From contig ONCG01000020.1 of assembly GCA_900316285.1 (NCBI GenBank), forward strand, positions 1 through 64,000: DNA of 64,000 nt. Direction: 5' to 3'. This DNA is from an uncultured Prevotellaceae bacterium (GTDB lineage: Bacteria > Bacteroidota > Bacteroidia > Bacteroidales > Bacteroidaceae). The notes beneath the pieces were generated by a model, which had not been told where the DNA came from, ran no database searches, and was given only the letters and a program-made list of their open reading frames with translations. Below are positions 3,692-56,400 of this stretch, one piece after another. Positions within the stretch are counted from its first letter, which is position 1. Each line of letters starts with the position of its first letter. The position numbers and the translations under genes are program-made.

Positions 3692-3802
3692 ATCGCGCGA
3701 TGACTCTGAAGTTAGTTTCAAAATCAGCTACAAAGATAATGCCTGCCCTAAGGGACGAGTCAAGAGAAATGAAGAAATTAACATGGATTTAACATATCAC
3801 TT

Positions 3803-4106
3803 GACCTTCGGTCGAGCCTGCTTACGCTCGGCAGAATTCAAGCATGGCTTGATTCTGCTCTCGCTAAAACGCAGCTGTGACCTTTGGTCGAGCCTGCTTG
3901 CGCTCGGCAGAATTCAAGCATGGTTTGATTCTGCTCTCGCTAAAATGCAGCTGTGACCTTCGGTCGAGCCTGCTTGCGCTCGGCAGAATTCAAGCATGGC
4001 TTGATTCTGCTCTCGCTAAAATGCAGCTGTGACCTTCGGTCGAGCCTGCTTGCGCTCGGCAGAATTCAAGCATGGCTTGATTCTGCTCTCGCTAAAACGC
4101 AGCCTT
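3803..4106. repeat. Four 76-bp tandem repeats carrying a gene's last codons
   Basis: Units start at 3803, 3879, 3955 and 4031 with a period of exactly 76 bp and only a few substitutions between copies. Each contains an imperfect palindrome, GCAGAATTCAAGC paired with GCTTGATTCTGC, and a smaller CGAGC/GCTCG hairpin. The copy at 4031-4106 holds the last codons and stop of the phosphatidyltransferase gene read on the minus strand; the other three are downstream copies. This fills the gap between that gene and the MerR gene. Confidence 0.9.
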
Positions 4107-32538: not shown

Positions 32539-34452
32539 TCAGGGTTCGTAGTCGAGGTCGAGGGCTCGTCGCCCTTCAAGGTCGGTGAAGACGAAGGTGA
32601 ACATCCATTTGTTCAGTCGGATGCCGGGCGTCGGACCGTAGGGCAGCTGCAGGCGAACGGTGTTCCAGCCTTCCTCCAGATGCAAGATGACGGGCTTGCG
32701 AGCAGCCATGTTCTCATCGGCGAGCGGCGTCTCGCTGAGAACACGCTGCCCGTGGTTCTTCCAAATGGGTGCGAGAATCTCCACGCCGTTCAGCCAGAGG
32801 CGCGAGCCCTTGCAGTCCCAATAGCCATATTCCGGCACGCTGTCTTGCTCCGAGCGACTGTAGTTCTGCAGTTCGATGAGTGCTCCCACCTTTTGGTCTT
32901 GGGGCGAGTACACACGCGTCTCGGCCCAAGCGGTGTCGCCATATTCGGCTGGCGGCAACAAGGCCGGAATGACATTCCGCCACGTGTGGTTCAGGTAGAC
33001 GGCGGCTCCGGTGGCATCGAAAGTGCGATGCCGATAGGTCACCTTCCACCGCACGTGCGACTGGCGGACATAGGCAATGGGCTCGTTGCTGAGCGCATGG
33101 CTCTTATGGAAGAGGAAACGCTCCTCCCAGCCGATGAAATCGGCGTTTTTTGCAGGCGAGACCACACCCGAAGTCTCGATGTAATGCTCTCCCCCACCCT
33201 GCCAAGCACGCGAGGCGAGGGCGATGACGGCAGGATAGAAAGCGTTCTGTCGCAGGATGTCGTCAGGTGTTGGCAACACATGGTCGTTCCACACGCAGGC
33301 GATGGCACCCGCCAATTCCTCTGACCCGCGGCTGACATAGTAGATGTTGCTCAGGTAGAGAGCGGCGACATCGGCAAACGAGTCGAAGTGGTTCAGATAG
33401 GTATAGCGGCAGTCGATGTTCGGACGACCCTTCACCAGTCGGCCCGCCGTGCTCCATAGCTGCACCATATCGGCCTGTGCGGGGTCTGCCTTGGTGGGAT
33501 TCCACACCACGACCTTTCGTCCGAGCGTATGCACCCAGTCGGTCATCGCCGGAATGAAGTTAGGCATGGAGATATTCACCTCATCGGCCCCAAGATGCAG
33601 ATAGGGTGCCAGAGGGAAGGCACCGGCAAGCTCAGAGAGGATGGTCTGCATCTCACGCATGCCCTGAAGGGTCTGCATCGAGTGCCCCATGGCACGCTCG
33701 AAGGCGGCGCTGTGGCCCGGCATGTCGATTTCGGGAATCACCGTGATGCCATACAGACGGGCATAGGCTTCCAGCTCGCGACATTGTTCCTGCGTGTAGA
33801 AGCCACCCTTGTGGCGCGTCATCGCGGCATCGGAGGTGAGCTGCGGATAGCTCTTCACCTCGAAACGCCATGCCTGGTTCTCGGTGAGATGCCAGTGGAA
33901 GGTATTCACTTTGAAGCGCGAGAGCAGTCGGATTTGTCGTTTCAGGTCGTCGAGGGGAATGAACGAGCGGCCCGTGTCGTGCATGAAGCCACGCAGCTTG
34001 AAGGCCGGCCAGTCGGTGATGGTCACGGCCTCAACGCCGGTACGCCCCTGATAACCCTCGGCGAGCTGCTGCAGGGTTTGTGCCGCACGGATGACACCCG
34101 TCGGCGTGACGGTCTCAATGCTAATGCGATTCTCATCCACGTCGAGTCGGTAGGCCTCGTTCTCGTAGCCGTCGAGGCGGTAGTCGTAGCTGCCAGGAAT
34201 CTCGTCGACGAGTCGCACCTCCACCCGGAACTTCGACTTTGCCACCAGCTCGCAACCGTTCTCCTCAAGCACGCTGCGCAACAGCCAGCAGTCGGTGGGG
34301 TCGCTGAGCACTATCTTCCGCCCCAAAGCAAACACCCTGCCACCCTCCTTCACAGCAATTTGCTGCGGCTGGGGCAACAGATGATTGGTGCGAGCTTTCG
34401 CGATGCAGGTGGAAAGCAACACCAGGATGGCAATGAAGACATTTCTCAGCAT
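32539..34452 (-). CDS. GH20 beta-N-acetylhexosaminidase, secreted
   Basis: A 637-residue exported enzyme (signal peptide about 1-20). Residues 22-145 are the GH20b N-terminal domain (LLPQPQQIAVKEGG). The barrel starts at FKLRGFMHDTGRSFIPL and includes FHWHLTENQAWRFEVKSYPQL, VIPEIDMPGHSAAF and the catalytic D290-E291 in YLHLGADEVN. The C-terminal part from about 450 is a beta-rich region (WKVTYRHRTFDATGAAVYL..., VILHLEEGWNTVRLQLPYG), probably a sugar-binding sandwich. It would remove terminal N-acetylhexosamines in the periplasm or at the surface. It lies 26 bp after glnN and 29 bp before the Dna2-like gene, in an apparent operon. Confidence 0.9.
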   Translation of the reverse strand: MLRNVFIAILVLLSTCIAKARTNHLLPQPQQIAVKEGGRVFALGRKIVLSDPTDCWLLRSVLEENGCELVAKSKFRVEVRLVDEIPGSYDYRLDGYENEAYRLDVDENRISIETVTPTGVIRAAQTLQQLAEGYQGRTGVEAVTITDWPAFKLRGFMHDTGRSFIPLDDLKRQIRLLSRFKVNTFHWHLTENQAWRFEVKSYPQLTSDAAMTRHKGGFYTQEQCRELEAYARLYGITVIPEIDMPGHSAAFERAMGHSMQTLQGMREMQTILSELAGAFPLAPYLHLGADEVNISMPNFIPAMTDWVHTLGRKVVVWNPTKADPAQADMVQLWSTAGRLVKGRPNIDCRYTYLNHFDSFADVAALYLSNIYYVSRGSEELAGAIACVWNDHVLPTPDDILRQNAFYPAVIALASRAWQGGGEHYIETSGVVSPAKNADFIGWEERFLFHKSHALSNEPIAYVRQSHVRWKVTYRHRTFDATGAAVYLNHTWRNVIPALLPPAEYGDTAWAETRVYSPQDQKVGALIELQNYSRSEQDSVPEYGYWDCKGSRLWLNGVEILAPIWKNHGQRVLSETPLADENMAARKPVILHLEEGWNTVRLQLPYGPTPGIRLNKWMFTFVFTDLEGRRALDLDYEP

Positions 34453-34478
34453 CTCAACGTCTCAACTTCTTAACGTCT

Positions 34479-36668
34479 CTATCTAATGAACAGCAATTCG
34501 CGATACTTCGGGAGCGTCCAGAGCTCGTCACTAACAATGAGTTCGAGCTTGTCAATCTGGTAGCGAATCTCCTCGAGGCGTGGTGCCACGGTGTCGTGAT
34601 AAGCGATGGCGCGCTCGCGGGCTGAATCGATGCGGTTGGCAACACGACGAGCCTCGACGAGTTCTTCGACACCCGTCTCGATGGCCTGTGTGCGTTCGCC
34701 AATCTCGATAATGATTTTCTTGTTGCGTGCCGTGATCTGATCGGCCTCCTCGCGGCTGAATATCTCGTACATGTTCTGCACGGTCTTTGCCAGCCGACTC
34801 TGATAGTGGGTGGCCACAGGAACGACGTGGTTCATCGTGATATCGCCCAGTACACGGGCCTCAATCTGTATTTTCTTCGTGTAGGTCTCCCACTTCACCT
34901 CGTTGCGAGCTGCGAGCTCGTTGCGGCGCATCACGTTCATGTGCTCGAACATCTTCACGCTGGCGGCATCGAGATAACGGTCGAAGATGCGGGGGCACGA
35001 TGTCTCGGTGTCGAGACCGCGGCGCTGCGCCTCCTGACGCCACTCGTCGCTATAGCCGTTGCCTTCGAAGTGGATGGGGCGCGACAGTCGGATGTCGTCG
35101 CGAACCACCTCGATGATGGCTTCCGTCTGGTCCTTGCCCTCTGCCACGAGAGCGTCGACACGCTGACGGAATTCGGTCAGTGCCTCTGCCACAGCGGTGT
35201 TGAGAACAATCATTGCTGCAGCACAGTTAGCCTCAGAGCCCACAGCACGGAACTCGAAGCGATTACCCGTGAAGGCGAAAGGCGACGTGCGGTTGCGGTC
35301 GGTATTGTCGATGAGCAGTTCGGGAATCTCAGGAATGTCGAGTTTCATGCCCTGCTTGCCGGCAACGGTGAAGAGGTCCTCGGTGTCGGCGGTCTCAATC
35401 TTCCGCAGCAGATCGCTGAGCTGCTTGCCGAGGAACGACGAGATGATGGCTGGCGGAGCCTCATTGGCACCCAGTCGGTGGGCGTTCGTAGCACTCATGA
35501 TAGAAGCCTTCAAGAGTCCGTTGTGGCGCCATACGGCCTTCAGTGTCTCTACGATGAACACCACGAAGCGCAGGTTCTCCTCTGCCGACTTGCCGGGTGC
35601 ATGCAGCAGCACACCCGTATCGGTGGCAAGACTCCAGTTGTTGTGCTTACCAGAGCCGTTGATGCCTGCGAAGGGCTTCTCGTGTAGCAGCACTCGGAAG
35701 CTATGATGGCGGGCGACGCGCTTCATGAGTTGCATGAGCAACATATTATGGTCGATGGCGAGGTTGCACTCCTCATAGATGGGCGCCAGCTCGAACTGGT
35801 TAGGTGCCACCTCGTTGTGACGCGTCTTCACGGGAATGCCCAACTCGAGGGCTTGTATCTCCAAGTCTTTCATGAACGCCTGCACGCGCTCGGGGATAGC
35901 ACCGAAGTAGTGGTCGTCCATCTGTTGGTTCTTCGCCGAGTCGTGGCCCATCAGCGTGCGACCCGTCAACATAAGGTCGGGACGTGCTGAGTAGAGGCTT
36001 TCGTCGACGAGGAAATATTCCTGCTCCCAGCCCAGATTGGCCTGTACCTTGCGCACCTCCGGGTAGAAGTAGTGACAAACCTCCGTGGCTGCGACGTTCA
36101 CGGCATGTAGCGAGCGCAGCAGCGGGGCCTTGTAGTCGAGTGCCTCACCGGTGTAGGAGATGAAGATGGTGGGTATACAAAGCGTGTCGTCGATGATGAA
36201 GACTGGCGACGTGGGGTCCCAGGCCGAGTAGCCTCTCGCCTCGAAGGTGTTGCGAATGCCACCCGAAGGGAAGCTCGACGCATCGGGCTCCTGCTGAACC
36301 AGCAGCTTACCCGAGAAGTCTTCGATCATGCCACCCTTGCCATCGTGCTCGATGAAGGCATCGTGCTTCTCTGCCGTGCCCTCGGTGAGCGGTTGGAACC
36401 AGTGTGTGTAGTGGGTGACGCCTTGCTCGTCGGCCCATTGCTTCATGCCCTTGGCCACGCCGTCGGCGATGCTTCGGTCGAGGCGAGCACCGTTGTCGAT
36501 GACGTCGATGAGCTTCTCATAGACGTCGCGCGGAAGATACTTATACATCTTCTGGCGATTAAACACATACTTTCCGAAATAGTCCGACGGCCGGTCGGCA
36601 GGCGTAGCTACATCCTGAGGCTTCTTGCGAAAAGCCTCTGCTACGACCTCAAAGCGTAAGTTACCCAT
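34479..36668 (-). CDS. glnN: Glutamine synthetase type III
   Basis: A 729-residue enzyme of the large GSIII class typical of Bacteroidales, making glutamine from glutamate, ammonia and ATP. Seen are the N-terminal GSIII region (MGNLRFEVVAEAFRKKPQDV), HDAFIEHDGKGGMIEDFSGKLL, GWEQEYFLVDE, KTRHNEVAPNQFELAPIYEE with NLAIDHNMLLM, FAGINGSGKHNNWSLAT, and the C-terminal helical extension. Length equals that of Bacteroides GlnN. The ATG at 36668 is chosen. Two promoters of the same design lie upstream. Expression may depend on nitrogen, but no regulator site is recognised. Confidence 0.95.
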   Translation of the reverse strand: MGNLRFEVVAEAFRKKPQDVATPADRPSDYFGKYVFNRQKMYKYLPRDVYEKLIDVIDNGARLDRSIADGVAKGMKQWADEQGVTHYTHWFQPLTEGTAEKHDAFIEHDGKGGMIEDFSGKLLVQQEPDASSFPSGGIRNTFEARGYSAWDPTSPVFIIDDTLCIPTIFISYTGEALDYKAPLLRSLHAVNVAATEVCHYFYPEVRKVQANLGWEQEYFLVDESLYSARPDLMLTGRTLMGHDSAKNQQMDDHYFGAIPERVQAFMKDLEIQALELGIPVKTRHNEVAPNQFELAPIYEECNLAIDHNMLLMQLMKRVARHHSFRVLLHEKPFAGINGSGKHNNWSLATDTGVLLHAPGKSAEENLRFVVFIVETLKAVWRHNGLLKASIMSATNAHRLGANEAPPAIISSFLGKQLSDLLRKIETADTEDLFTVAGKQGMKLDIPEIPELLIDNTDRNRTSPFAFTGNRFEFRAVGSEANCAAAMIVLNTAVAEALTEFRQRVDALVAEGKDQTEAIIEVVRDDIRLSRPIHFEGNGYSDEWRQEAQRRGLDTETSCPRIFDRYLDAASVKMFEHMNVMRRNELAARNEVKWETYTKKIQIEARVLGDITMNHVVPVATHYQSRLAKTVQNMYEIFSREEADQITARNKKIIIEIGERTQAIETGVEELVEARRVANRIDSARERAIAYHDTVAPRLEEIRYQIDKLELIVSDELWTLPKYRELLFIR

Positions 36669-36686
36669 AAACAATAATGATATAGT

Positions 36687-36758
36687 TCAATTGCTGCTGT
36701 GCAGCGTTCATAAGTTCAACGTTCAAATGCTGCTTTGCAGCGTTCTAAAGTTCAAATG
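36687..36758. repeat. Short hairpin-bearing direct repeat upstream of glnN
   Basis: Two diverged copies of about 35 bp built around GCTGCTGTGCAGC and GCTGCTTTGCAGC, each a 5-bp stem with a 3-nt loop, flanked by AAGTTCAA words. They lie in the leader of glnN. Confidence 0.7.
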
Positions 36759-36772
36759 TTTGAAATCGAGTG

Positions 36773-36804
36773 CAAAGGTACGAATAAGCGAGCGAAATGC
36801 AAAA
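36773..36804 (-). promoter_or_regulatory. glnN: Proximal glnN promoter
   Basis: On the minus strand TTTTG (36804-36800), 19-bp spacer, TACCTTTG (36780-36773). About 105 bp before the glnN start. Confidence 0.65.
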
Positions 36805-36858
36805 AGAAAATGAATTTTTCTTTTTCATTTCCAAGCGAAAGTACCTAAGACCGAAGGT

Positions 36859-36890
36859 CAAAGGTACGAATAAGTGAGAACAATACAAAA
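36859..36890 (-). promoter_or_regulatory. glnN: Distal glnN promoter, copy of the proximal one
   Basis: On the minus strand TTTTG (36890-36886), 19-bp spacer, TACCTTTG (36866-36859). It shares CAAAGGTACGAATAAG and GAG with the proximal promoter, 86 bp apart. Confidence 0.55.
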
Positions 36891-36934
36891 TAAAACGCAT
36901 TTTATTTTTAGTTGACCGGTTTTCAATATAAAAA

Positions 36935-37157
36935 GACCTCGAAGAGGTCACACAAAGGTAACCGCGGGTCTTGACCCGCGGAGTGTGGATATCTCTAAGT
37001 GCATCGACCCCAAAGGGGTCGCACATCACCACTCATCAAGTAAGCTAATTGTCTTTTCAGGCTGCTGTGCGTCCCCTTTGGGGACAAGGAGCTGGTTTTG
37101 ACCATTCCCTCCGCGGGTCAAGACCCGCGGTTAACATAGTGTGACCTCTCCGAGGTC
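36935..37157. mobile_element. Nested-palindrome element with about 48-bp inverted ends (223 bp)
   Basis: The left end begins GACCTCGAAGAGGTCACAC and carries the perfect hairpin CCGCGGGTC/GACCCGCGG. The right end is an inverted copy of the whole, differing mainly at a 4-5 bp stretch. Inside lie further palindromes, GACCCCAAAGGGGTC near 37008 and GTCCCCTTTGGGGAC near 37070. No coding potential and no target duplication. Confidence 0.8.
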
Positions 37158-37162
37158 TCGTG

Positions 37163-37250
37163 GATGCATGCTTTTGAGCAGCTGGAAGCATGCTTTTGTA
37201 CTGCCAGATGCATGCTTTTATACTGCTATATTTATGCTCCTATAACCCTA
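37163..37250. repeat. 22-bp repeat array 1 (four units)
   Basis: Units start at 37163, 37185, 37207 and 37229, each 22 bp, with core GCATGCTTTT. The fourth is strongly diverged. Confidence 0.8.
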
Positions 37251-37268
37251 GAGCATTGAGTTGGTTCA

Positions 37269-37400
37269 GTAAATTAACTTAATTTGTGTAGTAAATTAAG
37301 TTAATTTGCACGGTAAAATAAGTTAATTTACTGAGTAAAATAAGTTAATTTACTGAACAAATTAAGTTAATTTACTTTTCAAAATAAGTTGATTTGCCAA
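37269..37400. repeat. 22-bp repeat array 2 (six units)
   Basis: Units start at 37269, 37291, 37313, 37335, 37357 and 37379. Each holds the near-palindrome AAATTAAGTTAATTT or AAAATAAGTTAATTT. Confidence 0.9.
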
Positions 37401-37510
37401 TCTACCTCATTACTCCTGCAAAACTATGTCATTGCTTTAGCCACACTATCTCATAGCTTTAGCGGCACTATCTCATTGCTCAAACAACACTACCTCATTG
37501 CCTTAGAGAT
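37401..37510. repeat. 22-bp repeat array 3 (five units)
   Basis: Units start at 37401, 37423, 37445, 37467 and 37489, in phase with array 2 but with another sequence, core ACTATCTCATTGCTTTAG. Confidence 0.85.
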
Positions 37511-37535
37511 GTTGGAGCAATCGTGATAATAACAA

Positions 37536-37568
37536 AAAGCCTCGCAGGGATGCTCCCCACGAGGCTTT
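37536..37568 (-). terminator. Terminator of the first Sus operon
   Basis: AAAGCCTCG (37536-37544) and CGAGGCTTT (37560-37568). Read on the minus strand the stem is followed by TTTTTGTTATTAT, just after the last lipoprotein gene. Confidence 0.85.
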
Positions 37569-37607
37569 CTTATCAGATGGCTGGCATATAGCCAGCATGC
37601 AAGTTGC

Positions 37608-38099
37608 TTAGTCGTTCTCTGCCAGTCCGCTGTAGCGAACACCTTCCAAACGGTAGATGGTGCCAGGATCGTCGCTGTACTCGATATCCATTGTGATATA
37701 GTCAGCAGGCGAGCCATTGTTCTGCGTTCCACCGTTCTTGATGATCTTACCGTTCGTTACATTAACAGTAATATCATCGCCACGCTGGTTCTGGGCCGAG
37801 GAGGCACTGAACGTCAGGCCATTAGCATCAGCAGTTGCCTTTACCTTGAAGTTCCAGAAGTTCTCAATGTCGTCAATCCAAATCTCATTGGCGTTGTTGG
37901 CAGACGTGTTGTAAGTCAAGATAATGAACCTACCGATGCCGTATGGATCCTCAATGACTTGGCCATCTTCAACAACATTTCCCTGAACATACCACTGGCC
38001 GGCAAGGCTCTCTGTGGCTGTTCCACCCATTTCGTCCTTCTCACACGAGGTCAGTGTGATGGCGAAGAGCAAAGCTGCAAAATATAGTACTTTCTTCAT
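37608..38099 (-). CDS. Lipid-binding-like lipoprotein of a Sus locus
   Basis: A 163-residue protein with a lipoprotein signal ending in LTSC (Cys at about 19). The mature part is a small beta-barrel (SLAGQWYVQGNVVEDGQ, FWNFKVKATADANGLTFSAS, ITVNVTNGKIIKNGG) of the kind called lipid-binding putative hydrolase (PF12888) in Bacteroidetes Sus loci. It probably sits on the outer membrane next to the SusCD pair. Function not established. Last gene of the four-gene operon, 14 bp after the Ig-like lipoprotein. Confidence 0.7.
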   Translation of the reverse strand: MKKVLYFAALLFAITLTSCEKDEMGGTATESLAGQWYVQGNVVEDGQVIEDPYGIGRFIILTYNTSANNANEIWIDDIENFWNFKVKATADANGLTFSASSAQNQRGDDITVNVTNGKIIKNGGTQNNGSPADYITMDIEYSDDPGTIYRLEGVRYSGLAEND

Positions 38100-38113
38100 A
38101 TTTGCTTAATTAA

Positions 38114-38836
38114 TTATTTTGTTAACTCAACTTGGAACAACATGTCCGACCAGACGATACCCCATGAAAGAGTGTTCGTCTCCGGATCGTACTTGCCATC
38201 TGCGAATTCTGTGGGCAGATCGTCGCCGAAAGCAGCAGCAGGACCAGCGGTGATCATGACAATCTTGTTGTCAGAAGTCAGCTGAAGGATACCCTCCACG
38301 TCGAAGTCGTAGCCAGGATAGGCAGCACCGTAACCAACGTACTGGCTATAGTAGGCTGCGAGATAGTCCTTAATCTGGAAAATACCCGGGCAGAGATACT
38401 TGATGGTAGTGGTGCAACCGGGATAGAACACCTGCGATGCAGTCTGGCGATAGGTATTAGCTGTCGTGGTCCAGGTGCCACTCAGGTCGGTTGTCACGGT
38501 AGGATCGCAGACAGCCACTGTGCGGGTCTTGCTCCATTCAAATCCGTTAGGGCCTACGGCAGTGTAAGTCACATAATAGAGACCAGGTACGTTGACGTCG
38601 ATGTCGCTAACACCTGTTGTGACAATCTTTGAAGTATAGTCGCTGCCCTGGAAGGTAGCCGTACAACCAGCATCTTTGTAGGGTTCGCCGATGGGCGAGA
38701 TAGTGAACTCGTCGCCCTGAATACTCAGTACGGGATAGTCTATGACAGACGACAGCCCTTCAGTGTCCTTATCGCAGCTGGTGAGAGTAATCACACCCAG
38801 TGCGAGCAACATTGTATAGAATATGTTCTTTTTCAT
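38114..38836 (-). CDS. Surface lipoprotein with Ig-like domain (DUF5012-like)
   Basis: A 240-residue lipoprotein (signal peptide ending LTSC). Residues about 35-110 form an Ig-like domain (YPVLSIQGDEFTISPIGEPYKDAGCTATFQG, VPGLYYVTYTAVGPNGFEWSKTRTV), the DUF5012 pattern found after SusD genes. The rest (TDLSGTWTTTANTY onward) is a beta-rich domain that may bind glycan. It is probably a surface glycan-binding protein (SGBP-like) of the same locus. It lies 46 bp after the SusD gene. Confidence 0.7.
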   Translation of the reverse strand: MKKNIFYTMLLALGVITLTSCDKDTEGLSSVIDYPVLSIQGDEFTISPIGEPYKDAGCTATFQGSDYTSKIVTTGVSDIDVNVPGLYYVTYTAVGPNGFEWSKTRTVAVCDPTVTTDLSGTWTTTANTYRQTASQVFYPGCTTTIKYLCPGIFQIKDYLAAYYSQYVGYGAAYPGYDFDVEGILQLTSDNKIVMITAGPAAAFGDDLPTEFADGKYDPETNTLSWGIVWSDMLFQVELTK

Positions 38837-38882
38837 ATCGTTACTAATTTACGTTGTTACCTTATTACTTTGGTACTTAGTC

Positions 38883-40376
38883 TTACTTACCCCAGAACAC
38901 AGGAGATGCATAGCCGGGGAAGTCGGGGCAGTTGCTGTTGCGGGCCGAAGAGCTTTCGGGATAGGGCCAGCGCTCAAGAATCTTGTTAGCACCAAGCTTG
39001 TCCTCCACCTTGATAGGTGTGTAGAACGTGCCGGGTACATAGAGCTCGGGCTTGTAGCTGTCATCGGTTTGCTCGTTGTACATCTGCGAGCCCTGAACAC
39101 TACCGAATGCGGGGAAGTCAAGGCGGCGAGCCTCGCACCAGCCCTCAAACGTGTTCACGCCAGCCAGTGCAATCCACTTCGAAACGCCGATGCACTTCTT
39201 GTAGTTAGTCTGGTCGTATGGGAACTGCTTGATAGCCTCGGCAGCACCGGGAACGCCAGCTGTTTCGAACGAAGCTTCAATAGCTGCCTCGTAGTGAGCC
39301 TTTGCCTGATTAGCATTGCCAGCCTTGGCATAGTACTCAGCGATGAAGAACTCAATCTCAGCCTTTGTGATGAAATAGACGGGCATGTCGTAGCTGGCCA
39401 CAGGACGGCACCAGTAGCTTGACTTATACTTCGAGGAAGTAGAGAAGTTGCTACCCGAGATACCACCCGTGAAGTTGCCATCACTGTTGGGCTCGAAGAA
39501 AGCAGCCAGACGACCGTCGACATAGCTGGTTTGATTCATGGTGCCGATGATGGCAACATTACCGATGCAGTTAATCTGAGTGGATCCCCATGCGGTAGAG
39601 AATTCCTCAGCAAAGAAGGGGCTAAGAGCACCGCTCTCGTTCGACCAGCATCCCTCCCAAGCGACGTCGCCTTCAGGGAAGTTGTTCTGGCTGACAAGGG
39701 CAGCAATCTGCGAGTTGACATCAGCGACGCCACTCTCGCGGGTGAGCATCTTCAGCTTCACGGCGTTAGCCAGCTTGATCCACTCACCAGCAGTCTTGCC
39801 AGGAAGCAGGAAGTTGGTGGCTACTTGATCGCCCTCGCTGGCCTTTGACAGAGCCTCGTCGAGTTCGGCAAGCACACCAGCGTAGATGTCGGCACCCTGA
39901 TCATACTTCGGGGTAGCATTGCTGGGGTCGAGAGCCTCTGTGTAAGGCACTTCGCCATAAGCATCAACAAGAACCTGGTAGATGAAAGCCTTCAGCGTCT
40001 TGGCTGCAAGGAAGGTTCCCCACTCCTCGCTGGCCTCGGCCAGTTCGGCAGCAGTCTTCAGGTTCTTCAAAGCACGCTGGTTCAGCTGAGTGTAGTCAGT
40101 ACTGGAACGCGTGGCCGACATCGAGAACTTGCTGTAGTCCAGATAGTTTGATGTACCAAAGGCCTGGCTGTAGTACTGTGCAAAGTATCCACCAGTGATG
40201 CGGTAGAAATCACCATAGGAACTGCAAAGGTTCATCTCGGCACCCGGGAACAGGATATTGGTAGTCATGTTCTCCTCAGCCGGTGAATTGGGATTATGGT
40301 TAATATCCATATAGTCATCACACGAGGTCGTGAGCAGTCCCAAAGCTATTGTGAAAATAAATGCAAATTTCTTCAT
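38883..40376 (-). CDS. SusD/RagB-like lipoprotein
   Basis: A 497-residue outer-membrane lipoprotein (signal peptide ending LTTSC, Cys at about 19). It starts DDYMDINHNPNSP, the mark of the SusD-like_2 group, and has the TPR-like helices of the family (ALKNLKTAAELAEASEEWGTFLAAKTLKAFIYQVLVDAYGEVPYTEAL). The lid over the paired SusC barrel would bind the ligand. It follows the SusC gene by 18 bp. The SusD-like_2 subgroup is often linked to peptides or small glycans, so the substrate is uncertain. Confidence 0.9.
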   Translation of the reverse strand: MKKFAFIFTIALGLLTTSCDDYMDINHNPNSPAEENMTTNILFPGAEMNLCSSYGDFYRITGGYFAQYYSQAFGTSNYLDYSKFSMSATRSSTDYTQLNQRALKNLKTAAELAEASEEWGTFLAAKTLKAFIYQVLVDAYGEVPYTEALDPSNATPKYDQGADIYAGVLAELDEALSKASEGDQVATNFLLPGKTAGEWIKLANAVKLKMLTRESGVADVNSQIAALVSQNNFPEGDVAWEGCWSNESGALSPFFAEEFSTAWGSTQINCIGNVAIIGTMNQTSYVDGRLAAFFEPNSDGNFTGGISGSNFSTSSKYKSSYWCRPVASYDMPVYFITKAEIEFFIAEYYAKAGNANQAKAHYEAAIEASFETAGVPGAAEAIKQFPYDQTNYKKCIGVSKWIALAGVNTFEGWCEARRLDFPAFGSVQGSQMYNEQTDDSYKPELYVPGTFYTPIKVEDKLGANKILERWPYPESSSARNSNCPDFPGYASPVFWGK

Positions 40377-53229: not shown

Positions 53230-53270
53230 GTGTATTCCTCCGACTGAAGCAGCAGCGAGAGATTACTTGA

Positions 53271-53420
53271 CGACTTTGAACTACGTTCGAGTTCGTTCAC
53301 GCTCGGAAGAACTCGAACAAGTTCAGTTATTCACTCACTTAATCACGACTTTGAACTATGTTCGAGCTCGTTCACGTTCGGAAGAACTCGAACAAGTTCA
53401 GTTCTTCACTCACTTAATCA
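53271..53420. repeat. Two 75-bp tandem repeats carrying a protease gene's tail
   Basis: Units start at 53271 and 53346, 75 bp each. The second runs into the end of the C10 protease gene and includes its stop codon and last two or three codons (IK, stop); the first is a copy with a 10-bp stem GTTCGAGTTC/GAACTCGAAC. The two copies differ at few positions. Confidence 0.85.
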
Positions 53421-56400
53421 CGACCTTCTTGCCGTTGATGATGTAGATGCCCTTAGGGAGTTGAGAGGTCTCAACACCTGAACTTCTCAACGTCGCCACT
53501 CGTCGCCCACTCAGGTCGTAGATGACGGTTGCCACTGCCCCACTTCCTTCAGAAATGGGCCGGGGGTAGGCTTCAATTCCATTCGTCTCGTCGTTAAGAA
53601 TGGCGATATCGAGTGTCTTGGAATAGTATGGCGTTTCGCCAATAGCCTTGAAATAGGCATGGAAAGCATCTACTGACTGGGCACCGCTGGTAGAGAACTG
53701 GCTGCCGTCGGCATTGATGCCAAGGATGCCACGGAGTTGCTGCTTATAGGAGGAACCCGCGAACACCATATTCTGACCACTGGTGTAGGCGATGGCATCG
53801 GGCTTCACTGTTGCATTGGTGGCACTCCAGACAATCTTCTTGCCAACAAGGTTCCACTTTGCACCCCATGCATTGTCGGGAACGGCCACGAGATATGGCA
53901 CATTGGCTTGCATCTCGGGTGCATTACGGAAATAAACGGTCTGGCCATCCTCTTCAGCAAAGTCGCAGAGCCAGAACTGCTTACCACTGTCAACGCTGGA
54001 GTGGAACCAGTCTATCTGCTTGCCGTCCGTCTGGTTCGTCACCTTCGTGGGTTGGAAAGGCAGCACGATGGTCGACCATCCCGAGCGCACCTTATTATTA
54101 TGTCCCTGCGTGAACGTGCGCTCATAACTGATTTCCGAGGCAGTGAACGTCTGCGGAGTATAGAAATCGTAGCCGTCCTCGAGGGCGATGGCGCTGGCCA
54201 GTGTGCCTATGACAACATTCCTGCCTTCGAGTCCTGCGGGAGCCGTCTCGCCTTCTCCAAGGAAGTAGAGCGTGTTGGGATTACTATTTGCGGCAATGTT
54301 CTTCAACGTGAGACCTTCAAGCGACACGGCAGCCACATCTTCCGGAATGGCGAAGCCTTCCGCGGGTTTGTATCCCTTGCGTGTGCCGTCGCCCTTCCAA
54401 GTGATGACGCCACGCTCAATCTCGTAGTACTTCGACTTGCCTTTCTCCACGATGTTCTCCACGTGGGCTCCTTCCTCTTCTTGCGGCACGTTATTGCGTG
54501 CATAGATGTTCATGGAATAGGTATAGCCATAGGCGAGATTGTCAAAATCGAAGTAGTAGGTCACCGAGCCGCCTGCGGGAATGGAGACCGTCTGCTGCTT
54601 GTAGGTGACCATTGAACCAGCGCCGATGGTTCCGTCTTCGTTGCGCTTCACGATGAATAGTGGAGCCAGCACATACTTGTTGTATTCGCCTTCGGAATGG
54701 TTGGTGATGGTTGCCTTGAAGCGTGCGCTACTGTCATAGATGCTGCCATGAGTATACTCATCATCGTTCTCAACGGCATTCGTAGCTTCTATGTCGACGC
54801 TTAGATTCATCTCTGTCTCCTGACTCTCGGCAATAGTGACGGAGCCCGACTTGCTGAGATCATAGAAGTCACCATATTGTTTTTCCACAAGTTTTGCCGT
54901 AACAGTCTGTATACCTGCTGATTGAGGTGAAACATTAAATGTTACGACACGTTCCTGTCCTGCAAAAATCTCTGCCTGAACCACGGTGGTATAGTTCGAC
55001 ATGTCGTCAATTTTCTGAGTACCGAAATCGAGATAGATATCATCAAAGAATCGATCCTCGCTGTTGTTCTTGATAGTTGCGTTCACCTGAACCTTCGAAC
55101 CTACTTTCAAGTCGCCAGCAAACGACCAGTTAGTGACTGTGAGGTCGATATTGGGATGGTAGGTGGGGGTGCAGGTTGTACTAGTCATGTTGACTTCAAT
55201 ATAGTAGCGGTCGCTCTCCTTCATCGGTTTCCACTCGCTGCTGCCTTCCACCTGATACATGGGCACGATTCGATAAGTACCTGTCAATCCTGCACCAAAT
55301 TTAATGACGTTAGAGGCATTTGATTCCACTCCTTCGGCAAACTTTGTAGTTTGGCCAAGTGCAGAGGTAGTAACAGCCATGTAGATATTGCTTTCTGAAT
55401 TGGGCAGAATTGTGTAGGTGTCAGCCTCAGGGTCGTAAAGAGCCAGTGCTTCCTTAAACTTCTTGCCTGTGCCAGAGTGGTCAGAAAAACTCACCTTCAC
55501 AATTTTCGACTTATAAATCTTGAATGGGTCACTCAGCCGATCGCGGTCCCAAGCAGTGGGTCCGCTAATATTGGTCGCTGTCAGCACGGGCTCCATCTCC
55601 TCCTCTTCACCGCTGCCACCTTCTGGCGTTGCCGTTCCAGGGATAATATTATAGATGATGTTCTGTTTCATGTTGTAGCCTTCGCTACTGGAGGAGCCGC
55701 CAATGCCGCTGGCCGAAGGATTCAGGATGCTGAGCTGGAAGAAACCATTGCCCATGCCACCCCATCCCCAGTTGATGTGGAAATAGTCACCATACTCAAA
55801 CCCGTCGCAGATGAACGAGTGGCCGCCACCGCTACCAGCCGTGCCGTTATAGATCATCGGGCGTCCAGCAGCCAGTTCGTCATAGACAAGGTCATTCCAT
55901 GACTCTTGGTCATAATCGGTGCGGAAGGCGATCTTCGACCCATAGCCGAACTGCTTGAAACCTTTAGGAATATCATCGGTGAAAGCGCCCGATGCAGATA
56001 AGCCATACTGCATCTTCACAGAGCAACCCACATAGAGCATCAGGTGGGCAACGGCAGAGGTATACACCTCCGGCTCGGCACCGGTATAGGTTTCACGCAT
56101 GTGTTCCCAGTCGAAGGTGGTGGGAGGCTGTGTTTCCATCGTCACCGTGGCATAATCACCCATTTGTTCACCAGCTACCGTGAATGTATAAGAAGGAATC
56201 TCATGATCAATGCTTTCCGGCTGCTTATAGAAATACATGATCTGCGACATCGACGTCGCCACACAACCCGTATAGGCCAGTTCGTAGCCATCGGCCTCAT
56301 CGTCGGAGTTCATGAACTGCGGACACTCGTTCCAATACGGCGTCGCCTGGTCCCACTTCGTTGTGATGAGGGGTGCGATGGAGTTGTGGGTGCCCACCCT

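Follow-up and report, generated by a model that had tools for sequence, protein, structure and literature searches.

The run of 22-bp repeat units at positions 37157-37508 of the window (the whole 64,000-nucleotide stretch of DNA analysed, which is contig C38 of a 3.89-Mb genome, hereafter the source genome) is probably a series of sites for proteins of the HU-HIG family (PF18291)—that is, a phased operator or architectural array—as judged from comparisons within and between genomes. A phased protein-binding array was among the possibilities named in the initial annotation, and the palindromic core units, the fixed 22-bp pitch, and the candidate DNA-binding family emerging from these comparisons speak for such an array, the binding itself being predicted.

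Structure and surroundings of the array

The array and its neighboring genes are arranged as follows.

34479..36674, minus strand: glnN, type III glutamine synthetase (GSIII), its ORF beginning about 480 bp away from the array
37157..37266, plus strand: upstream flank, five 22-bp units of the GCATGCTTTT / GAGCATTGAG type, sharing the phase of the core
37267..37398, plus strand: core, six 22-bp units, each a 15-bp palindrome (AAATTAASTTAATTT) plus 7 bp, with some units of the form AAAATAAG..
37399..37508, plus strand: downstream flank, five 22-bp units of the ACTATCTCATTGC type
37608..38099, minus strand: Lipid_bd family lipoprotein gene, with the array downstream of the gene

The 16 units keep one continuous phase, with unit centers running from 37168 to 37498 and those of the core at 37278, 37300, 37322, 37344, 37366, and 37388. 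The initial annotation had counted fifteen units; the 22-bp pitch stands, but the supposed 18-bp gap is an in-phase unit (CTAGAGCATTGAGTTGG, center 37256). Its view that spacing is constant while sequence changes was borne out by the one unbroken phase across 37157-37508. Autocorrelation over 37151-37520 likewise preserved the periodicity, with maxima at 22 (0.658) and 44 (0.567), compared with values of at most 0.367 in 1000 simple shuffles. Each of the three blocks taken alone peaked at 22 (0.64, 0.81, and 0.70), and the same period was assigned to all three by TRF. When the 64-kb window was scanned, with no motif given, for runs of three similar palindromes at periods 17-29, the array was the sole match at the stricter threshold; at the lower threshold, one match at 22 (again the array) and one at 21 were obtained. 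No RNA family matched within 34000-40000, and the identical repeats and unique spacers of similar length that mark a CRISPR were not found, the units being 22 bp with 7 bp between palindromes.

The core units have the palindromic form AAATTAA-S-TTAATTT, with six to seven of eight half-positions pairing. The flank units of the window are barely palindromic (one to five of eight, chance being two) and have drifted from the genome-wide flank consensus, in which alone the flank palindrome is visible; because of this drift the flanks look like two families in the window. The three unrelated repeat families of the initial annotation therefore reduce, in the genome-wide consensus, to two: a palindromic core and one outward-facing flank family.

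Other repeats were also observed in the window. At 36934-37158, ending at the array start, lies a 50-nt inverted repeat (92% complementary, copies 125 nt apart) with GC-rich palindromes, which resembles a small element of the MITE or REP kind. Further tandem repeats were detected by TRF at 3802-4103 (76 bp, 4.0 copies, 96%) and 53270-53424 (75 bp, 2.1 copies, 95%), and arrays of 21-bp units (GGGCAAATTTGGGTTATAAAC) and 30-bp units were found close to the window start (717-815 and 446-517).

Dispersed arrays in the source genome and its relatives

A search with the window locus revealed 38 arrays in the source genome (that of the window and L009-L045). A two-unit core pattern with up to three mismatches matched 186 unit pairs, all of them inside these 38 loci, and the reversed control matched none. 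The matches were spaced 22 bp apart, except for some off-register matches at distances of 5, 17, or 18 bp and for L017, where wider gaps occur. By span, 26 of the 38 arrays have a core of six units and 11 a core of four, five, seven, or eight; L017 has 16 degenerate ones. All 38 cores are intergenic, as the initial annotation had supposed for the window array in calling the repeats non-coding; with the ORFs chosen mechanically, the adjoining gene pairs are tandem in 26 cases, divergent in six, and convergent in six.

These orientations bear on a possible role of the arrays in the transcriptional control of neighboring genes, which for the window array would be glnN. The array does lie upstream of glnN, as first annotated, and the gene is a true GSIII; a second source-genome array (L022) lies upstream of a glnA-like gene, and in another genome, G200, an array (L092) is located beside the counterpart of that gene. 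Yet no gene orientation is preferred, and six of the 38 arrays are located between convergent genes. The position next to glnN seems incidental given the mixed orientations, and control of neighboring genes is regarded as unlikely. The glnA-GntR place common to L022 and L092 was also considered as a clue to the binding partner and set aside, being a shared array place rather than a partner.

Outside the core, flank units 2-4 upstream and downstream have consensus sequences that are reverse complementary at 19 of 21 positions (best of five shifts; 37 of the 38 arrays, L017 being left out). In the same 37 arrays, the unit consensus fades after about five units on both sides, and no conserved terminus or leader-tail with terminal inverted repeats appears in it. 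The order of units is alike from array to array, as if whole arrays had been copied or unit order were held by position-specific constraint. A motif-free scan of 237 kb of source-genome stretches yielded two further arrays (L046 and L047), the former made of flank-family units alone; seven other periods gave only two matches in the same scan, both at 18.

The sister genome G172 contains an array in homologous surroundings for 15 of the 38 loci, on comparison with 38 array stretches of G172, whose assembly is in about 120 contigs, such that the other 23 places need not be empty; one locus with two weak matches (L032) was left out of the 15. Core identity across the 15 pairs is 79-95%, compared with 56-83% for up to 330 bp on either side, which is partly coding. 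Unit count differs in six of the 15 pairs, and in two cases, L041 and the glnN locus (six core units in the source genome, five in L099 of G172), the alignment gap is a clean 22 bp. Thus, the spacing claimed for this locus survived comparison with a related genome, the period in G172 still being 22 with one unit fewer.

Pairs of AAATYAANTTRATTT (the first motif) at 22 bp were found in 14 of 398 genomes of the genus, some with only one or two pairs. Related motifs occur in other members: in G006, units resembling AAATYAATTTRATTT form blocks, mostly of four, between flanks like GAAAG..CTTTC, and the complete genome G350 contains blocks of AAATTCASTGAATTT and AAATCAASTTGATTT units, which in seven of the eight stretches seen are parted by one in-phase unit of a different kind. 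Between species, both half-sites change together, with inner triplets TAA, CAA, TCA, TCG, and TAG, and hybrid sites occur. In a motif-free scan of a 200-kb sample of G350, 13 places were detected at period 22, about one per 15 kb (11 of them of the GAAAGTT/AAAAGTG kind), with none at the other periods from 17 to 29 and none in one dinucleotide shuffle.

The searched classes in G350 amount to 74 unit pairs at 30 places, and the distribution of these 30 arrays bears on the replication or segregation site envisaged in the initial annotation. Tens of palindromic sites spread across a chromosome would suit a parS- or matS-like set for segregation or terminus organization; however, with the origin placed from sampled GC skew, neither an ori-ter bias (KS p 0.47) nor even spacing (CV 0.89; random 0.69-1.30) was detected for the 30 arrays, and the first motif class occurs in 14 of the 398 genomes. 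A segregation set is thus not supported and appears very improbable.

Beyond the genus, a three-unit AAAT..ATTT pattern was matched at order level in one of 393 genomes, namely the source genome. A scan of named genomes with a three-unit pattern returned 50 stretches, mostly from Prevotella and many from ruminant guts, with three exceptions, one each from Clostridiales, Kiritimatiellae, and Treponema. In these bins (G789-G791), for which misbinning is possible, AAAT..ATTT units at 22 bp were found and no clade protein (see below) was detected. Palindrome arrays at 22 bp were seen in the Kiritimatiellae bin (AAATCCAATGGATTT, six alike; L177) and the Treponema bin (AAATCCASTGGATTT/AAATCAASTTGATTT; L184).

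HU-HIG genes and the motifs before them

Four arrays were found directly before genes for HU-like proteins, and all four proteins belong to HU-HIG by Pfam membership (PF18291; 69.8-85.6 bits, cut-off 26.2). The NCBIfam model HU_rel (TIGR01201) matched six of six members, the source-genome protein scoring 65.9, under the cut-off of 68.6. HU and IHF chains of solved structure also match the HU-HIG proteins weakly in sequence. Gene neighbors common between genomes were tried as a route to the partner and, besides HU-HIG genes, seemed to reflect mostly chance or paralogy. The source-genome gene of this clade is the following.

G000:C15:172401-172823: HU-HIG gene of the clade (C15 paralog), located behind an array of the same type as that in the window

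An HMM built from the four HU-HIG proteins gave six matches of at least 145 bits over the collected loci, in six genomes and each directly behind an array, although four of the six had built the model and five come from loci chosen for their arrays; the sole unbiased match (L147) comes from G350 stretches sampled at even intervals to measure GC skew. A genus-wide search of whole genomes, in which the best candidates (at most 10 per genome) were scored, yielded at least 47 clade genes in at least 45 genomes, each with at least 146 bits. Upstream regions were compared for 46 of these genes, that of the source genome included and L230 excluded as it has no upstream sequence. In 41 of the 46, 22 was the best of periods 16-30, and in 41 the region beat the best of 30 simple shuffles; a strong three-unit array was present in 34, usually 67-150 bp before the start codon. 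Five regions (L232, L257, L258, L260, and L268) lack a peak at 22, and one cut by a contig end (L233) does not exceed its shuffles. The C15 gene has a moderate score (37) in this test because better units lie beyond 330 bp.

Genomes with the first motif tend to encode the clade protein: 10 of the 14 positive genomes have a clade gene of at least 165 bits, compared with 30 of the 384 others (Fisher p 2.6e-8 over 398 genomes; best candidates, at most 10, per genome). No clade gene was found in the other four positive genomes, namely G172, where all 22 candidates were scored and the assembly is 89% complete, and G047, G316, and G250; the array evidence consists of one array at a contig end in each of G047 and G316 and of one unit pair in G250.

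This association was extended by prediction, the motif being read before the clade gene and then searched for in the whole genome. For the TCA type (TCA or ACA promoter), predicted pairs were found in 13 of 13 genomes (2 to 58 pairs), a count that leaves out G350, searched earlier, and G184; in addition, one TCA-type pair was found in G295, which has a CAA promoter. For the TCG type, predicted pairs were found in seven of seven genomes (2 to 368), the 368 being those of G366, whose promoter sequence, at a contig end, yields a single readable unit. The promoter array provides the only matches in G032, G288, G136, and probably G175, while matches outside the promoter are listed or implied by count in the remaining 10 TCA and six TCG genomes. 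Three clade genomes with another or unreadable motif contained no TCG pairs, and neither the TCA nor the TCG search gave a match in eight genomes provisionally classed as clade-less; the control pattern gave four matches in G012. One genome with a TCG promoter motif, G246, has additionally nine pairs of hybrid TCA/CAA/TAA units, matched to no paralog (with the same coordinates in G793).

Lower-scoring HU-HIG genes were considered as a negative control, and this set was not clean, part of it carrying arrays: of 23 such genes, 15 have 22 as the best period, 16 beat their shuffles, and six are preceded by strong arrays. Other periods, shuffles, and the eight provisionally clade-less genomes served as negative controls instead. 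In a 400-kb sample of one of these genomes (G024), two matches at 22 and two at 25 were obtained at the lower threshold and none and one, respectively, at the stricter, with no clear excess at period 22; the two HU-HIG-like matches in this sample both fall outside the stretches with matches at period 22. Units of the ATTACCCACGTTGGGTAAT type at 22 bp were noted there, at the lower threshold only (L298 and L299).

A further pairing of paralog and motif was observed in the source genome. Units of AATATATSATATATT precede the C25 paralog, as they do similar genes in G200 and G172, and a dispersed 22-bp array on contig C33 (L047, about 2080-2200; four copies of AATATATCATATATT), bordered by core-like and flank-like units in the same phase, matches them. 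Together with C15, these amount to two paralog-motif pairs in one genome. For the flank motif, no matching paralog was found, and several further HU-HIG paralogs inspected have no array before the gene. A paralog of G350 (C1:1431346; L144) is preceded by ACTCGTACGAG-type units spaced by eye at about 22 bp.

Protein sequence varies with motif among the 34 of 46 clade proteins that could be sorted by motif. Asp15 and His111, picked from all columns by mutual information, are present in six of six TCG-type proteins, while the 15 TCA-type proteins have Ser or Asn at position 15 and none has His111; Asp15 is found also in one TAG-type protein (L255). In a FastTree phylogeny, the TCG proteins form two groups of three, the first nesting with ten TCA-type proteins (support 1.0) and the second drawn beside a TCA protein with support not above 0.9. 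Thus, the residue-motif change may have arisen twice or been lost again, and either history would fit a link between residues and motif.

It could be argued that the arrays are operators of another regulator, with HU-HIG genes merely among its targets. The arrays lie just upstream of promoter-like TAnnTTTG sequences of the HU-HIG genes, and such a location is possible for any operator; moreover, G172 carries arrays without a clade gene having been found. Against an independent regulator stand the variation of the motif from paralog to paralog, its change along with the clade gene from one species to another, the two HU-HIG residues that follow it, and the lack of both tested motifs in all eight provisionally clade-less genomes. 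This reading is accordingly considered quite unlikely.

A second argument is that the arrays constitute a dispersed, MITE-like non-autonomous element or minisatellite without function, comparable to BrickBuilt (see below), whose link to HU-HIG is nearness to such genes. The similar unit order gives whole arrays a copied appearance, G172 (a fragmented assembly) provided a match for no more than 15 of the 38 places, and some genomes have matches at the promoter only whereas another has 368 unit pairs. Against this stand the lack of shared termini, the consensus instead fading over about five units on either side; the better conservation of the core than of its surroundings; the phase, held while sequence drifts; and the symmetric motif changes, which match the promoter array of the clade gene. 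A functionless element is thus highly improbable, and sites for HU-HIG proteins remain the preferred reading.

Proposed function and comparison with known systems

HU/IHF superfamily proteins bind DNA as dimers. In the proposed mechanism, one HU-HIG dimer would occupy each palindrome (about 15-17 bp), and the 22-bp pitch, about two helical turns, would place the dimers on one face of the DNA, where cooperative assembly could produce a nucleoprotein filament or bridge. A single paralog would bind the core units; in the source genome this would be the product of the C15 gene, which itself follows an array of the same type and so may be autoregulated. A second protein, perhaps another paralog, may bind the flank units; in mixed arrays such as that in the window, different proteins would then build one co-phased filament. 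For the dispersed sites, our guess is that local nucleoid architecture or silencing is favored over control of neighboring genes. Since some genomes have matches at the promoter only and others have hundreds of pairs, the arrays may have served autoregulation first and been dispersed later, in particular lineages. More tentatively, and with rather less than even confidence, the HU-HIG paralogs could be imagined as a self-coded system of chromosome architecture, in which each protein has its own palindrome and a matching promoter array and coats matching or composite arrays chromosome-wide.

HU-HIG, to which the proposed partner belongs (near HU_rel, TIGR01201), is a large family of Bacteroidetes. 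Open-access literature searches found no paper on the 22-bp arrays or on HU-HIG sites, and no HU-HIG target was found in the literature searched. The present comparison offers a directly testable site code for many members of the family and a natural series of protein-DNA pairs with changed specificity, and the reading would explain the dozens of repeat arrays that certain genomes carry between their genes.

The nearest described system found is BrickBuilt of Porphyromonas gingivalis, a 23-nt minisatellite/MITE at 19 intergenic places (PMC4596501, PMC5771137), with one to 22.8 units and a leader and tail with inverted ends (PMC4596501). The likeness lies in dispersed intergenic tandem arrays, several copies there and 38 between ORFs here, whose units span some two helical turns, in a Bacteroidales genome. 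The systems differ in unit length (23 nt compared with 22 bp), in the inverted ends, no conserved terminus being found here, and in reported symmetry: the terms "palindrom," "histone," "nucleoid," and "binding site" are absent from the PMC4596501 text. One copy, BrickBuilt_14, lies between a membrane protein gene and a gene for a PF00216 DNA-binding protein (PMC4596501, Table 1), and this location beside an HU-family gene is a possible parallel to the HU-HIG arrays.

Dispersed palindromic sites are shared with other systems. ParB-parS, Noc, SlmA, and MatP each involve such sites for one protein, but these are mostly single and biased toward ori or ter, and the proteins have other folds. Plasmid iterons resemble the window family in repeat length, being direct repeats of about 22 bp bound by an autoregulating protein, the Rep initiator; they form one array per replicon, whereas the source genome has 38 arrays of palindromic units.

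IHF, HU, and TF1 belong to the same superfamily as HU-HIG. These proteins are dimers that bend DNA, and IHF is sequence-specific, with single, asymmetric sites in contrast to the phased palindrome arrays here. In textbook bacteria, HU is largely non-specific and IHF acts at single sites. Overall, if HU-HIG proteins do coat the arrays, Prevotella would possess a sequence-specific, HU-based chromosome organization unlike that of textbook bacteria.
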